DNA of 64,000 bases from Enterococcus dongliensis (GTDB lineage: Bacteria > Bacillota > Bacilli > Lactobacillales > Enterococcaceae), in contig NZ_BJDQ01000011.1 of assembly GCF_005405225.1 (NCBI RefSeq), positions 1 to 64,000 of the forward strand. The letters run 5' to 3'. The notes beneath the pieces are model-generated. The model ran no database searches. It was not told the origin of the DNA and saw only the letters and a program-made list of their open reading frames with translations. Made by a program: the position numbers and the translations under genes. Below, piece by piece: positions 17,018-29,039 of the stretch; the stretch's first letter is position 1, and each line of letters opens with the position of its first letter.

Positions 17018-17245
17018 CTATGCTTCTTTTACTTTTGTTGATTGAACGCCATAACCTAATTTTTCAACAACAGCAGATAATTGTTCTGGACTAACTTCTT
17101 CTGGATTGAAATTTGCCTTAATCTTGCTGGCGTTAAATAAAACTTTTGTATCACTGACACCAGGTTGTTGAGAAACAGCATGCTCAATTTTTTGCATACA
17201 GCTTGGACAAGATAGCGTATCTAATTGCATAATAATCTTTTTCAT
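17018..17245 (-). CDS. copZ: CopZ-like heavy-metal-associated domain protein
   Basis: Small cytosolic metallochaperone, 75 residues, with one heavy-metal-associated domain. The metal-binding CPSC sits near residues 13-16 in place of the more usual CxxC of GMTCxxC; the fold pattern continues to LGYGVQ. I chose ATG 17245, with AAGGAAG at good distance, over the longer frame. It lies downstream of the metal ATPase but has its own promoter with an exact FNR-type box (17301-17314), so it can be made independently. Copper is the usual cargo of this family; the copper assignment is inference, and no CopY-type box is seen. Confidence 0.8.
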   Translation of the reverse strand: MKKIIMQLDTLSCPSCMQKIEHAVSQQPGVSDTKVLFNASKIKANFNPEEVSPEQLSAVVEKLGYGVQSTKVKEA

Positions 17246-17272: not shown

Positions 17273-17314
17273 ATTATAAGGCGTAACTCGTGGGAAAAAA
17301 TTGATTTTTATCAA
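17273..17314 (-). promoter_or_regulatory. FNR-type box and promoter of the CopZ-like gene
   Basis: Exact palindrome TTGAT-N4-ATCAA at 17301-17314. Read leftward it is followed by six T and, after 22 bases in total, TATAAT (17273-17278). The box centre is about 41.5 bases from the expected start near 17266, the class II activator position for FNR-family proteins. The normal -35 is not recognisable, fitting activator dependence. Confidence 0.75.
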
Positions 17315-17321
17315 GTTTTCT

Positions 17322-19187
17322 CTATTTTTTGTGTCCAAAATACAGTAGACGCATAGCATTAAAAATTACTACCAAAATACTTGCTTCATGAACGAACATA
17401 CCACTAGCCATGTAGATAAAGCCGGCAAACAAACCAATGAGTAAGAATAAAACGACACCAATCGCAATCACAACGTTTTCACGAGTATTCAGCACAGTTT
17501 TCTTAGCTAAACGGTAAGCGTGAACCAAGGCTTCAAAGCTTGATTGCATCAAGACAACATCACTGGTCTCAATAGCAACATCGGTTCCTGATCCCATAGC
17601 GATTCCAATATCTGCAGTAGCTAAAGAAGGAGAATCATTGATTCCATCTCCAACAAAGGCAACACGGCGACCTTGATCTTGGAATTTTTTGACAAATTGT
17701 ACTTTTTCATCTGGTAATAACTCAGCGTGAACTTCATCGATTCCTAAAACATTAGCTACATATTCAGCAGTGATTTGGTTATCACCTGTCAACATCACCA
17801 AGTGTTTTGCACCAGCTTGTTTCAAACGAGCGAGTTGTTCTGCAACTTCTGGGCGAATGATATCGGAGACACCAATGATTTGAGTGATTTTTTTATCGAT
17901 CACTACAATGATAATAGAGCTGCCGTTTTTTTGTAATTGGAGCAGATCTTGTTCTTGTTGCGGTGTCAATGAAAGATTATGGGTCGCAATCAATTTAGCA
18001 TTACCAGCACAAACTTCATGACCATCAATTTCAGCTACAATTCCTTGACCTTTAATGGTCTGGTTGTTTTGGATTGTTAATTGTTGAAAGGTCAGTTTTT
18101 TTTCAGTGGCGTAATTAATTACGGCACGACCAAGCGGGTGATCAGATAACATTTCTAAGCGGGCAACTAAGGCTAAACTCAGTTTTTCATCTGTCGTATA
18201 ATTTTTGATAGTAGAAACAGCAGTCGTACCTTTCGTTAATGTACCGGTTTTATCAAAGACGAAAGTATCGATTTTAGAAAAAGTATCCATCGCTTCGCCG
18301 CCTTTGACTAAAATCCCGCGTTTTGCCCCATTACCAATACCTGCAACATTCGAAACAGGTGCCCCAATAACTAAAGCCCCAGGGCAACCAAGCACTAAAA
18401 CGGTGATAGCTAAACGAAAGTCACGACTTATCAAACCGACAATCAACGCAATGAATAATACAGCAGGCGTATAGTATTGTGAAAAGCGGTCGATAAATTT
18501 TTCAGCATGTGATTTGGTATCTTGTGCTTCTTCGACCAATTCAATGATTTTTGCAAAGGTCGTATCGTCACCGACTTTGGTTGCTTCGATTTTCAAAAAA
18601 CCATCGGCTAAGATCGTTCCAGAGAAAACTTCATCGCCAGTCGTCTTCACGACTTGTTTAGATTCGCCCGTGACCGCGGCTTCATCTGCATAACCTTTAC
18701 CATCAACAACTTGTCCATCGACGGGAATTGCACCGCCAGTTTTTACTAAAACGACATCGCCTTCTTCCACATCGTCGATTGTTACTTCTTCAGTCGTACC
18801 ATCTGCTTGTAGGACACTAGCAGTAGTGGGAGCCATCTCTGTTAGCGCTTTGATGGATTCTCTTGTTTTAGTCAACGTTTTTTGTTCTAAGTAACTCCCA
18901 AACAAAAATAAGAAAGTGACAATGGCCGATTCATTGTATTCACCAATGATGAATGCACCGATTACAGCGATGGTAACTAATAAATCAATCGAGATGACTT
19001 TGACTTTGACTGCTTGATACGCATGAATCGCAATTGGAATCACAGCGATGATAGAAGCTACAGCCAATGCTATTTTGTATAAAAGGATGACACCAGCAAT
19101 TTTCCCAACAAATCCTAAGGCAATCAAAATGGCTGATAAAACAGTAATGTGGTTACTATGATCTTGGATCCACTTTTGAACTTTCAT
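17322..19187 (-). CDS. Heavy-metal P1B-type ATPase with CPG motif
   Basis: Membrane pump of 621 residues that couples ATP hydrolysis to metal-ion export. Core motifs: TGES (173-176), the transmembrane metal site CPG (268-270), DKTGT (312-316), HP (350-351), GDGINDSP (513-520), and a final helix with HEAS...NAMRLL. No N-terminal metal-binding domain is present; the separate CopZ-like protein may fill that role. CPG in place of CPC or CPH makes the ion hard to assign; Cu, Cd and Zn remain possible. AGAGG precedes the ATG. Its promoter carries an FNR-type box. Confidence 0.88.
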   Translation of the reverse strand: MKVQKWIQDHSNHITVLSAILIALGFVGKIAGVILLYKIALAVASIIAVIPIAIHAYQAVKVKVISIDLLVTIAVIGAFIIGEYNESAIVTFLFLFGSYLEQKTLTKTRESIKALTEMAPTTASVLQADGTTEEVTIDDVEEGDVVLVKTGGAIPVDGQVVDGKGYADEAAVTGESKQVVKTTGDEVFSGTILADGFLKIEATKVGDDTTFAKIIELVEEAQDTKSHAEKFIDRFSQYYTPAVLFIALIVGLISRDFRLAITVLVLGCPGALVIGAPVSNVAGIGNGAKRGILVKGGEAMDTFSKIDTFVFDKTGTLTKGTTAVSTIKNYTTDEKLSLALVARLEMLSDHPLGRAVINYATEKKLTFQQLTIQNNQTIKGQGIVAEIDGHEVCAGNAKLIATHNLSLTPQQEQDLLQLQKNGSSIIIVVIDKKITQIIGVSDIIRPEVAEQLARLKQAGAKHLVMLTGDNQITAEYVANVLGIDEVHAELLPDEKVQFVKKFQDQGRRVAFVGDGINDSPSLATADIGIAMGSGTDVAIETSDVVLMQSSFEALVHAYRLAKKTVLNTRENVVIAIGVVLFLLIGLFAGFIYMASGMFVHEASILVVIFNAMRLLYFGHKK

Positions 19188-19224: not shown

Positions 19225-19266
19225 AGTATAGGGCGGTTCTATTGATAAAAAATTGACCAATATCAA
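19225..19266 (-). promoter_or_regulatory. FNR-type box and promoter of the metal ATPase
   Basis: Read leftward: TTGATATTGGTCAA (19253-19266; one mismatch to TTGAT-N4-ATCAA), six T, 22 bases in total, then TATACT (19225-19230). The architecture is identical to that before the CopZ-like gene. Confidence 0.7.
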
Positions 19267-19472
19267 GTTTGGTAAAAAATCAGCAAAACTACTCTTGTTT
19301 TAATTGAATACTATAAAAGAGATTGATAAATAAGAAGAACATTGAGCTGTTTGCGCACACTTCATGAAGGTCGTCACTACAGTTTAATAAAAAACTTGTT
19401 GGAGCAACATTTTAAGTTAATAAAGTAGAGAATGATAATTCTGATGAACCTGTATATTTGAGGAAACAAGTG

Positions 19473-19871
19473 ATGCGAAAAAAGACTATAAATACGCATG
19501 ATCAGATGAAGTTCCGGAAGAAGAAAGAGGTAGTCATAAAAAAAGTAGAACGAACTTCTGCAGCACTAAACTCTGAAACACCAGGTGAATTTGATATTAA
19601 TAGGCTAAAATATGGTACTTACTATTTACATGAAACAGTCGCACCAGATGGTTATGTAGTACCAAATTCTGATTTTGCTTTTACCGTTGAGGAAGGACTA
19701 GTTGTATTTCCTGATTTGAGAGGAGGACGGTATCGTCTGCAAAGTAAAGCGGTCAATTTATTCATCTACGTGAAGAGTATCAAAGCCAAACAATTTGATC
19801 TTAAGTTGAAACAAAAGGGAACGTTTGTCTTGATTAATGAAGACGGCTACCGCTTAATCAAAAAGATTTAA
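19473..19871 (+). pseudogene. Cna-B/SpaA-type surface protein fragment
   Basis: Small basic protein of about 133 residues with no signal peptide, membrane segment or sorting signal. Its middle, GEFDINRLKYGTYYLHETVAPDGY, carries the typical sequence of a Cna-B (prealbumin-like) repeat from Gram-positive adhesins and pilins; what follows is not Cna-like. An isolated internal repeat in the cytosol makes no sense for that family, so I read it as a relic of a deleted surface-protein gene, although GAGGAAA precedes ATG 19473 and it could still be translated. Confidence 0.6.
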
Positions 19872-23640: not shown

Positions 23641-23682
23641 TTGATAACTATCAATTTTTTTAGAAATGATTCGTTCTATACT
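23641..23682 (+). promoter_or_regulatory. FNR-type box and promoter of the Ric-like gene
   Basis: Exact palindrome TTGAT-AACT-ATCAA at 23641-23654, a T7 run, 22 bases in total, then TATACT (23677-23682). The geometry is the same as at the metal ATPase and CopZ-like promoters. Start expected near 23689. Confidence 0.75.
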
Positions 23683-23738
23683 TTGAACTGTAGAGAAGAA
23701 AAACTTCTCAGCAGTTGAATGAGAAAGAAGGAACGGAC

Positions 23739-24029
23739 ATGTCAAAAATTAGTAGCTATTTAAATGAAAATCGAGAAAAACTAGCCCTTTATACCACAGC
23801 GATTACCCGTGCACACGGAGCAAATCATCCAGAGGTATTTGAAGTGAAAAAAATTTACGATACTATTTGGGATCAGCTGCAAAATGAAGGATCGGAAGTA
23901 AACTTAGACACGGAATTCGAACAGTTACGAGAAACTACGAATAACTATGAGATTCCTTCTGATGTTTGTCAAACATTCGAAGCAACCTATACAATGCTAG
24001 CCGAAGCCGATCAATTAAATCAAAAATGA
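23739..24029 (+). CDS. Short Ric/YtfE/ScdA-like protein
   Basis: Cytosolic protein of 96 residues resembling part of the di-iron Ric (YtfE/ScdA) family that repairs Fe-S clusters damaged by nitric oxide or oxidants. AHGANHPEVFEVKKIYDTI matches the His-x3-His-Pro-Glu helix of that family, and LRETTNNYEIPSDVCQTFEATY matches its TNNY-P-C-TF-A-Y block. It stops just before the place where the family carries the final DLHxHxHLEN metal-ligand helix, so it cannot form the normal site alone. ATG 23739 has AAGGA at good spacing; the frame's TTG at 23715 is less likely. Confidence 0.65.
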   Translation: MSKISSYLNENREKLALYTTAITRAHGANHPEVFEVKKIYDTIWDQLQNEGSEVNLDTEFEQLRETTNNYEIPSDVCQTFEATYTMLAEADQLNQK

Positions 24030-27215: not shown

Positions 27216-27242
27216 TAATGAAGAAAAATGGAGGCGAAAGAG

Positions 27243-29039
27243 ATGAGTAATATAAGAAAACTCTTATTAACAGTGATGGTTGGAATCGTGGCATTGATTT
27301 TTGAATTTGGATTCCATCAAAGTCAGTGGGCCTTTTGGTTGGTTTCGATTATTGGTGGTATCATGACGATTTCTATGCTGATCGGTATGATCAAAACATT
27401 ACGCTCTGGAAAATATGGAATAGATATTTTAGCGGTTACAGCTATCTTAGCTACATTATTAGTAGGTGATTATTGGGCGAGCCTAGTCGTTTTGATTATG
27501 TTGACAGGTGGTGATAGTTTAGAAGATTATGCTAGTCATCAAGCGAGTCGAGAATTGCGATCACTTTTAGATAACTCACCGCAGGTTGCTCATCGAATCG
27601 ATGGAGAAAAAATCAGTGAGTTAGCTGTTGATGAAGTTCAAGTAGATGATCTAGTCTTGATTAAACCCGGTGAATTAGTTCCAGTCGACGGTCGAATCAT
27701 TGCGGGTGAATCGTTTGTAGATGAGTCTTCGCTAACAGGAGAATCCAAGCCGATTGAAAAGAGGATCAATGATGAGTTGATGTCTGGTTCGGTCAATGGT
27801 GATGCAGCACTTCGCATGAAGGTGACAAAAGCTGCAAAGGATAGTCAATACCAAACTTTGGTAAAATTAGTAAAAGAATCTGAAGCCAAACCTGCTCACT
27901 TTGTTCGATTAGCGGATCGTTATGCGGTTCCTTTTACGATCACAGCTTATGTAATTGGAGGAGTCGCTTGGTTTGTTTCAAAAGATCCTGTTCGTTTTGC
28001 TGAAGTTTTAGTCGTAGCTTCTCCTTGTCCGTTGATTTTAGCAGCACCAGTTGCCTTAGTTGCGGGAATGAGTCGTTCAAGCCGGAATGGAATTGTGGTT
28101 AAAACTGGAACCACCATTGAGAAACTTGCTCGTGCAAAAAGTATAGCTTTTGATAAAACTGGAACTTTGACCAAAGGCAGTCTTTCAGTTAAAGAGATCC
28201 ATATTGAATCGACTGATTTTTCTAAAGAAGAGTTGATTACCTATGCAGCAAGTGCTGAACAAGAATCTAGTCATATTTTAGCTCGTTCCTTAGTCGCTTA
28301 TGGAAAAGCCAATAAAATTGCGCTATTTCCAGTAAGTGATTTAGAAGAAATCACTGGTCAAGGAATCCAAGCACAAGTCAATGGTAAAATGATTCGGGTC
28401 GGCAAAGCTGCTTTTGCTGGTTCCGCGCATGAATTAAGTAATGAGAAAACAGCTGTCTATGTCTCACTCGCTGATCAATACATCGGCTACATCACGTTTA
28501 CAGATATTGTTCGCGAAGAATCAGCAGAGACGATTACAGAACTAAATAGCTTAGGAATCAAAAAAACGATCATGCTGACTGGTGATCATCAATCTATTGC
28601 GAATCAAATCGCAAATCAAGTAGGGATTTCAGAAGTCCACGCGGATTGTTTGCCGGAAGAAAAAATAACTGTTTTAAAAACATTAGTAGAAGAAGATCGT
28701 CCAGTCGTTATGGTTGGAGATGGAGTCAATGATGCACCAGCTTTGGCGGTTGCAGATATTGGAATCGCGATGGGAGCTCATGGTTCAACAGCGGCTAGTG
28801 AAAGTGCAGATGCAGTAATTTTAAAAGATGATTTAAGCCGCGTTTCAGCGGCAATTCGATTATCCCAAGATACCATGCGAATCGCTCGTCAATCAGTATT
28901 GATTGGATTGATTATTTGTGTGATTTTGATGTTAATCGCAAGTACGGGCGTAATTCCAGCATTATTAGGTGCGGCTTTACAAGAAGTAATCGATACTGTT
29001 TCAATCTTATCTGCTTTACGAGCACGAAAAGATAAATAA
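27243..29039 (+). CDS. pfeT: P1B4-type Fe(II) efflux ATPase (PfeT-like)
   Basis: Membrane metal pump of about 598 residues. It has TGES, the transmembrane SPC motif (about 260-262) in VASPCPLILAAP, DKTGT (about 304-308) and GDGVNDAPA. No N-terminal metal-binding domain is present, and the last helix reads LQEVIDTVSILSALRA. SPC plus the missing domain marks the P1B4 group (Fe/Co/Zn). The exact PerR box upstream is the arrangement of Bacillus PfeT (formerly ZosA), which exports ferrous iron during peroxide stress; the iron assignment rests on that parallel. ATG 27243 follows GGAGG by eight bases. Confidence 0.87.
   Translation: MSNIRKLLLTVMVGIVALIFEFGFHQSQWAFWLVSIIGGIMTISMLIGMIKTLRSGKYGIDILAVTAILATLLVGDYWASLVVLIMLTGGDSLEDYASHQASRELRSLLDNSPQVAHRIDGEKISELAVDEVQVDDLVLIKPGELVPVDGRIIAGESFVDESSLTGESKPIEKRINDELMSGSVNGDAALRMKVTKAAKDSQYQTLVKLVKESEAKPAHFVRLADRYAVPFTITAYVIGGVAWFVSKDPVRFAEVLVVASPCPLILAAPVALVAGMSRSSRNGIVVKTGTTIEKLARAKSIAFDKTGTLTKGSLSVKEIHIESTDFSKEELITYAASAEQESSHILARSLVAYGKANKIALFPVSDLEEITGQGIQAQVNGKMIRVGKAAFAGSAHELSNEKTAVYVSLADQYIGYITFTDIVREESAETITELNSLGIKKTIMLTGDHQSIANQIANQVGISEVHADCLPEEKITVLKTLVEEDRPVVMVGDGVNDAPALAVADIGIAMGAHGSTAASESADAVILKDDLSRVSAAIRLSQDTMRIARQSVLIGLIICVILMLIASTGVIPALLGAALQEVIDTVSILSALRARKDK

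Follow-up and report, generated by a model that had tools for sequence, protein, structure and literature searches.

A Shared FNR-Type Promoter Probably Joins a Metal-Pump Module, a Predicted Flp Regulator, and a Short Ric-Like Protein in Enterococcus dongliensis

Known Flp Systems and Related Plasmid Islands

FNR of Escherichia coli is an oxygen sensor that holds a [4Fe-4S] cluster with four cysteines. It recognizes the operator TTGAT-N4-ATCAA by a recognition helix of the E..SR pattern, and its class II sites are centered at -41.5, the position typical of CRP/FNR activators. FLP of Lactobacillus casei reportedly harbors cysteines at positions 5 and 102 and is said to use the operator CCTGA-N4-TCAGG. 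In the FlpA and FlpB operons of Lactococcus lactis, the regulator gene reportedly lies behind an HMA gene and a ferritin-like gene; these FNR-like regulators reportedly resemble the one described here in that they do not possess the full Fe-S cysteine set. The L. lactis plasmid pGdh442 shows the order ATPase, HMA, ferritin-like (41.6% identity to the protein of our host genome), and Flp, with promoters of the N22 type (22 bases between palindrome and -10 hexamer) ahead of the ATPase and HMA genes. According to an excerpt of PMC5039431, FNR-like proteins of Gram-positive bacteria often have two cysteines, their activation by Fe-S clusters is disputed, and a Flp-type protein of Streptococcus suis controls arginine deiminase genes; a Flp therefore need not be dedicated to metals.

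Islands of the order Dps, Crp/Fnr, lgt, HMA, and ATPase are present on plasmids of Listeria and Enterococcus. They are similar to the genes analyzed here in gene kinds, promoters, and CPG-type ATPases, but among the five stretches compared, ric is annotated only in the one from Tetragenococcus. For a Listeria plasmid, Dps, a Crp/Fnr regulator, a prolipoprotein diacylglyceryl transferase, a copper chaperone, and a copper ATPase are tabulated in an excerpt of PMC5663981, and an excerpt of PMC8508797 describes three types of Listeria plasmid ATPases as having unknown substrates.

The system is a variant of the known Flp operons to which a promoter code, a Ric-derived partner, and the CPG pump type are added. 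Neither a short Ric-like member, nor a multi-genome promoter code, nor a scattered layout was found in the literature searched, a scope outside which the founding papers on FlpA and FlpB fall. The reading developed in the following sections, which we consider likely, is that a Flp protein acting in the class II position (-41.5) co-activates a module for the handling and export of soft metals, including its own operon and the gene of a short Ric-like protein.

FNR-Type Promoters in the Window and the Host Genome

The window, i.e. the whole 64,000-nucleotide stretch of DNA that was analyzed, contains three promoters of one architecture. The gene of the short Ric-like protein (96 aa; 23739-24029 with the stop codon included, plus strand, ATG at 23739) is preceded by the FNR-type palindrome TTGATAACTATCAA (23641-23654, plus strand), a predicted Flp operator, and, 22 bases past it, by the -10 hexamer TATACT (23677-23682, plus strand); TTGATAACTATCAA-N22-TATACT as a whole spans 23641-23682. 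On the minus strand, TTGATAAAAATCAA (17301-17314) and TATAAT (17273-17278) stand upstream of a copZ-like gene, and TTGATATTGGTCAA (19253-19266) and TATACT (19225-19230) upstream of an ATPase gene. The FNR-type promoter that the initial annotation ascribed to all three genes is thus real in its positions and its N22 geometry, with the ATPase palindrome one base off. The same annotation spoke of unlinked transcripts, which is correct for ric versus the ATPase/copZ pair but not within this pair: the two genes are tandem neighbors on the same strand, and copZ may therefore also be transcribed by read-through from the ATPase promoter. If the hexamer is taken as -12 to -7, the palindrome is centered at -41.5; the start sites of all three promoters are putative, as they are placed from the -10 hexamer.

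A scan of the entire window with the pattern TTGA[TCA]-N4-[AGT]TCAA, 20-24 bases, TA[TA]NNT returns these three promoters only. It might be argued that the palindrome is a product of chance or a general motif of AT-rich DNA that carries no regulatory meaning, since the palindrome alone (up to two mismatches) is much less special, being modestly over-represented with 129 matches in the window versus 88 expected. The combination with a -10 hexamer is a different matter: TTGAY-N4-RTCAA-N22-TATAMT occurs three times in the window and not once in 400 simulated windows of 64 kb (Markov-1, with the dinucleotide frequencies of the window). Moreover, the sites precede related genes, and palindrome and spacing are conserved across genera. 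A chance origin of the promoter copies, rejected on the simulation and on the exact genome matches described below, retains a virtually negligible probability, in line with the earlier statement that chance hardly explains them. The promoter common to these genes is probably the mark of an actual gene network.

The host genome as searched (1.81 Mb, 74% complete) shows exact matches to TTGAT-N4-ATCAA-N22-TANNNT in three places, ahead of copZ, ric, and a flp operon. Behind its exact promoter copy, whose -10 is weak (TAGAAT), this operon encodes three proteins: a second CopZ-like protein of 75 aa, a ferritin-like one of 177 aa, and Flp (219 aa). The 30 best genome places were turned into loci, of which 28 were judged and two near contig ends (L039 and L040) were left out. 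Four of the 28 precede module genes, namely copZ, ric, the flp operon, and, with one mismatch, the ATPase gene. Of the remaining 24, 23 sit within frames of at least 69 aa. These 23 include the ric palindrome read on the opposite strand (L037) and two places (L018 and L023) with the next gene starting within 75 bases. The frame overlying the copZ site is an over-extended ORF, the one at the ric site an antisense ORF. The last of the 28, a site with one mismatch and the hexamer TAAAAT (L027) is intergenic and immediately ahead of a 420-aa frame, which makes it a weak candidate for a possible additional regulon member.

Two further genes, one encoding a DUF1858 protein and one a DUF438-hemerythrin-PAS protein (L041:9545-11103, minus strand), immediately precede the flp operon and have only a half-site before them. 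This half-site, noticed on visual inspection, departs from the N22 rule and was disregarded; the two genes might encode a gas or redox sensor pair.

Conservation and Gene Order in Relatives

The initial annotation had made its proposal dependent on conservation of the palindromes in orthologues, and they are conserved. TTGATAACTATCAA is identical at the ric gene of Enterococcus xiangfangensis (L071), apparently a close relative since it encodes a Ric-like protein 86% identical to that of the window (ATPase and CopZ: 96%), and the palindrome type is kept in other relatives. Within the family, presumably the Enterococcaceae, the short ric-like gene is present in 22 of 105 genomes. These harbor 29 ric places, 16 of them with an upstream palindrome, and all 16 show a -10 (at least 4/6 matches) at exactly N22. 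The remaining 13 all have an HMA gene directly upstream, an arrangement met in none of the 16, and ric therefore follows copZ there as the downstream partner in a copZ-ric pair.

A broader set consists of 77 named loci, drawn from the 80 best among 325 relatives and originating from Bacillota, two Coriobacteriia-type MAGs, and one Bifidobacterium. As a result of this selection, and with 16 loci sharing 91-99.98% identity over at least 3.5 kb with one of them (L093), the locus counts are not independent. Module genes are preceded by 142 palindromes in 68 of the 77 loci (palindromes less than 40 bases from a locus end were skipped, and ties between -10 positions were first given to the spacing nearest 22). 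The best -10 is found at N22 in 127 of these 142 (98 uniquely, 29 tied with another spacing); among the 170 palindromes elsewhere in this DNA, the same holds for 32 (14 unique, 18 tied). Nine loci, including three from Clostridiales, one from Desulfosporosinus, and one from Acholeplasmataceae, have no palindrome before any module gene. The consensus of 116 distinct promoters, in which the spacing is given by construction as they were selected for N22, reads AAAC-TTGAT-N4-RTCAA, a T-rich stretch, and TATACT, the latter being exact in 82. Their -35 regions are poor: at spacers of 16, 17, and 18 bases, only 4, 3, and 0 of the 116 agree with TTGACA in at least 4/6 positions.

With an FNR-type palindrome at -41.5, a -10 hexamer, and a poor -35, the promoters show the anatomy of class II CRP/FNR promoters. 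A site over the -35 region could obstruct the polymerase, so that Flp at -41.5 would act as a repressor released by metal or oxidant. We regard this as quite improbable because a fixed N22 together with a poor -35 is what an activator requires, and the flp operon itself bears the site, as in positive autoregulation. Activation by Flp is the reading pursued here.

Of the 77 loci, 70 encode CopZ within 4.5 kb of ric, 66 the ATPase, and 52 Flp; 47 loci combine all three there, and 71 have at least one of them. No protein cluster other than the four module genes occurs in more than 19 of the 77 loci; ferritin-like genes occur in four. The six loci with no module neighbor of ric are L071, L073, L077, L086, L112, and L119, five of which keep the ric palindrome, just like the window. 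The window is hence a scattered version of a module that usually forms one cluster, which provides independent evidence for co-regulation. On the sequence level, the predicted co-regulation of the three window genes holds up well.

The Candidate Regulator Flp

Flp (219 aa) is a member of the Crp/Fnr superfamily according to its matches to PF00027 (E 3.4e-13) and PF13545 (E 7.5e-18), and it is by far the best HTH_Crp_2 match of the host genome (67 bits; next 30). Its recognition helix, TTPETLSR, displays the E..SR pattern and, along with the operator and the -41.5 center, connects the system to E. coli FNR. A second cNMP-domain gene (239 aa, L010) was rejected as the regulator: its HTH match is weaker, and an E..SR helix is absent by eye. 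At a genome completeness of 74%, a further regulator could have escaped the search.

Unlike E. coli FNR, Flp does not have the four-cysteine [4Fe-4S] set. In an alignment of 59 rows (frames below 190 aa and all beyond the best two per locus left out), the only conserved cysteines are Cys7 (58 of 58 letters) and Cys104 (59 of 59 rows), and no Fe-S cysteine cluster is present. This pair agrees with the two-cysteine FLP type (near 5 and 102), and thus nearly with the positions in L. casei FLP, the operator of which differs (CCTGA-N4-TCAGG versus TTGAT-N4-ATCAA). Approximately 22 of the 59 rows, near-identical Bacillus-type copies, possess an additional Cys/His tail (CCHHQHGHAEC-like).

Flp and the promoters co-occur. 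Across the 105 family genomes, the strict promoter pattern was matched 135 times, with 129 of these matches in the 58 genomes with Flp (counted at E 1e-20 or better, which includes paralogues of 32-40% identity) and 6 in the 47 others; a reversed-pattern control yields a single match. Counted per genome, 43 have Flp and pattern, 6 the pattern only, 15 Flp only, and 41 neither (Fisher p 1.3e-10, in a test that ignores kinship). Flp is present in all 22 genomes with ric. The 15 and the 6 genomes that have only one of the two count against a perfect fit of Flp with the promoters; in one of the 15 (G040), the ric promoter is present with TACACT, outside the strict pattern.

The ATPase and the CopZ-Like Proteins

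P1B-type ATPases of subgroups 1 and 2 carry a CPC motif, those of subgroup 4 an SPC motif. The ATPase of the window (621 aa; 17322-19187, minus strand) has the heavy-metal P1B core, with 577 bits to TIGR01525 (E 4.4e-173; cut-off 346), and neither of these motifs; instead, it has CPG in the helix that corresponds to TM6 and HEAS in the one that corresponds to TM8 (numbered by analogy). A PF00403 search detects no HMA domain in it. LGCPG recurs in all 69 related ATPases from the loci (at least 44% identity to the window ATPase; matches below this value are outside the module counts), as well as in all seven plasmid copies; HE-x-S is found in 68 of the 69. Over 67 rows, all of them frames of at least 600 aa, C268, M593, M597, and H600 do not vary. 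The pump core is clearly homologous to ZntA (4umv), CopA (3rfu), and 7qbz; ZntA and CopA have CPC in place of CPG, and the type is further distinguished from these pumps by HE[AG]S near the C-terminus and the invariant M593 and M597. Among solved structures, Cu and Zn pumps give the best sequence matches, which does not settle the metal. A P1B 'CPG motif' was not found among the literature matches listed.

The CopZ/MerP-like HMA protein (75 aa; 17018-17245, minus strand; PF00403 E 3.3e-10) has a CPSC metal site, and CPSC is found in 84 of 110 CopZ-like proteins.

Three further observations concern the surroundings of these genes. A second P1B ATPase of the window (27228-29039) has SPC for CPG and showed no FNR-type promoter in the pattern scan. 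Immediately past the ATPase promoter, a fragment of a SpaA-type prealbumin-like domain (19458-19871) is situated, perhaps a remnant. In E. xiangfangensis, copZ is followed by a ferritin-like gene (L071:2627-3364), in the window by an unrelated opposite-strand frame.

The Short Ric-Like Protein

The 96-aa protein was initially described as resembling the Fe-S repair proteins YtfE/Ric, which is borne out for the fold and fails for the di-iron site. Its profile matches ScdA with E 1.4e-11, and its sequence aligns to ScdA as two segments, residues 8-63 with 90-144 and residues 60-91 with 174-205. VIA-align places all 96 residues of the AF2 model (mean pLDDT 97.3) onto ScdA 9j47 with Z 11.0 and rmsd 2.1 (YtfE: Z about 10), a Z that alone is not decisive for helical bundles. 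The top nine rows are all ScdA/YtfE (Z 9.9-11.0), followed by an unrelated bundle at Z 8.7; the rows under this group were treated as common helical bundles. In Foldseek, the top 12 rows are ScdA/YtfE, the best E being only 2.8e-3. Judged from the model, the overall fold is that of Ric/ScdA/YtfE.

The protein is about half the length of Ric/ScdA/YtfE and has no N-terminal ScdA domain; its 96 residues are aligned over 128 ScdA residues and end at YtfE position 203. We take the ligands of the di-iron site to be four His and two Glu, with H204 and E208 as the last ones in YtfE. The short protein has only H26 and H30 as His residues, and both the ligand hairpin and the last ligands are missing; with two His and an end before the last ligands, the classical di-iron site cannot form. 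TIGR03652 (Ric) scores 45.7 bits against a curated cut-off of 204.7, and a Pfam search gives no match above cut-off. H26, G27, H30, P31, E32, P73, and C77 are invariant in 45 sequences (the window and 44 of the 77 named loci). The ric of L125 was left out of this alignment because its stretch holds a stop codon; in this Streptococcus henryi locus (L125:5975-6244), the stop is in frame within the matched ric stretch. An interpretation of ric as a decayed pseudogene was rejected because 22 of the 105 family genomes contain a short, intact frame and seven columns are invariant over 45 rows. The protein may perform other metal or thiol chemistry or serve as a partner beside the CopZ-like proteins.

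The initial annotation had predicted a regulon of metal efflux and Fe-S/NO damage repair. Metal efflux stands, now with Flp as the candidate regulator; the repair part is not supported in the form proposed, since the His/Glu ligand set is absent and the Ric cut-off is missed by a wide margin. An oxygen- or NO-responsive FNR regulon in which metal efflux is linked with Ric-based di-iron Fe-S repair would nevertheless account for the fold shared with ScdA/YtfE, the FNR type of the operator, and the DUF1858 and DUF438-hemerythrin-PAS genes adjoining the flp operon. A short Tetragenococcus protein even carries the annotation 'iron-sulfur cluster repair di-iron protein, ric', and FlpS of S. suis is reported to sense oxygen (excerpt of PMC5039431). 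We consider such a regulon unlikely, however. In addition to the ligand set and the score, Flp has no N-terminal cysteine cluster, and no NO-detoxification enzyme is a regular partner in the 77 loci, as only the four module clusters exceed 19 of them. Short genes annotated as 'ric' apparently encode proteins devoid of the di-iron site, which suggests that the label may mislead.

Proposed Mechanism

In the favored model of class II activation, a Flp dimer, encoded elsewhere in the genome, would bind the TTGAT-N4-ATCAA palindromes centered at -41.5 and recruit RNA polymerase to promoters with a good -10 and a poor -35. Flp would thereby jointly switch on its own operon, the CopZ-like chaperone of the window, the CPG-type P1B ATPase, and the short Ric-like protein. 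The CopZ-like chaperones are predicted to deliver a soft metal to the ATPase, which would export it. The ferritin-like protein might take up iron or protect DNA, and the Ric-like protein, lacking a classical di-iron site, could protect metal sites or Fe-S clusters via other chemistry. The signal is most likely perceived via the invariant Cys7 and Cys104 of Flp. Among metal, disulfide, oxygen, and NO sensing, a metal is favored because the module centers on metal carriers and a metal pump.

A more far-reaching version is put forward tentatively and is itself rather doubtful. Flp, built on a Crp/Fnr scaffold, would sense soft metals directly by means of Cys7/Cys104 and, in the Bacillus-type copies, the additional tail; the ATPase would define a CPG subgroup of P1B pumps that has not been described before; and the short Ric would be iron-free and work with the CopZ-like proteins via its conserved HG-x2-HPE and P-x-D-x-C ends.

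Distribution and Mobility of the Module

The promoter signature is strict enough for finding module members in further genomes, and a widespread, partly mobile metal-pump module is now tied to a predicted regulator. A 4.3 kb cassette of ATPase, CopZ, Ric, CopZ, and Flp is 99.9% identical in Cytobacillus, Paucisalibacillus, and Bacillus (L093, L108, and L092), which over three genera points to recent transfer; the L092 contig holds little else. An island of Dps, Flp, (lgt), HMA, and ATPase with four such promoters is present on plasmids of Enterococcus, Listeria, and Carnobacterium, where the module-type promoters stand ahead of the Dps, Flp, HMA, and ATPase genes. A Ligilactobacillus plasmid contains the same kind of Dps-Flp island with an unannotated stretch.

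Some copies show peculiar layouts. Repeated CopZ-Ric-CopZ-Flp units occur in Bacillus niameyensis (L084 and L087), and the Tetragenococcus plasmid (L148) has HMA-ric in tandem. On the latter, a DUF6448 gene beside the module (L148:3784-4479) possesses its own N22 promoter of the same type (TTGATGCCGCTCAA). A DUF6448 gene is also located near ric on the Pelobacter plasmid pPRO1 (L152).
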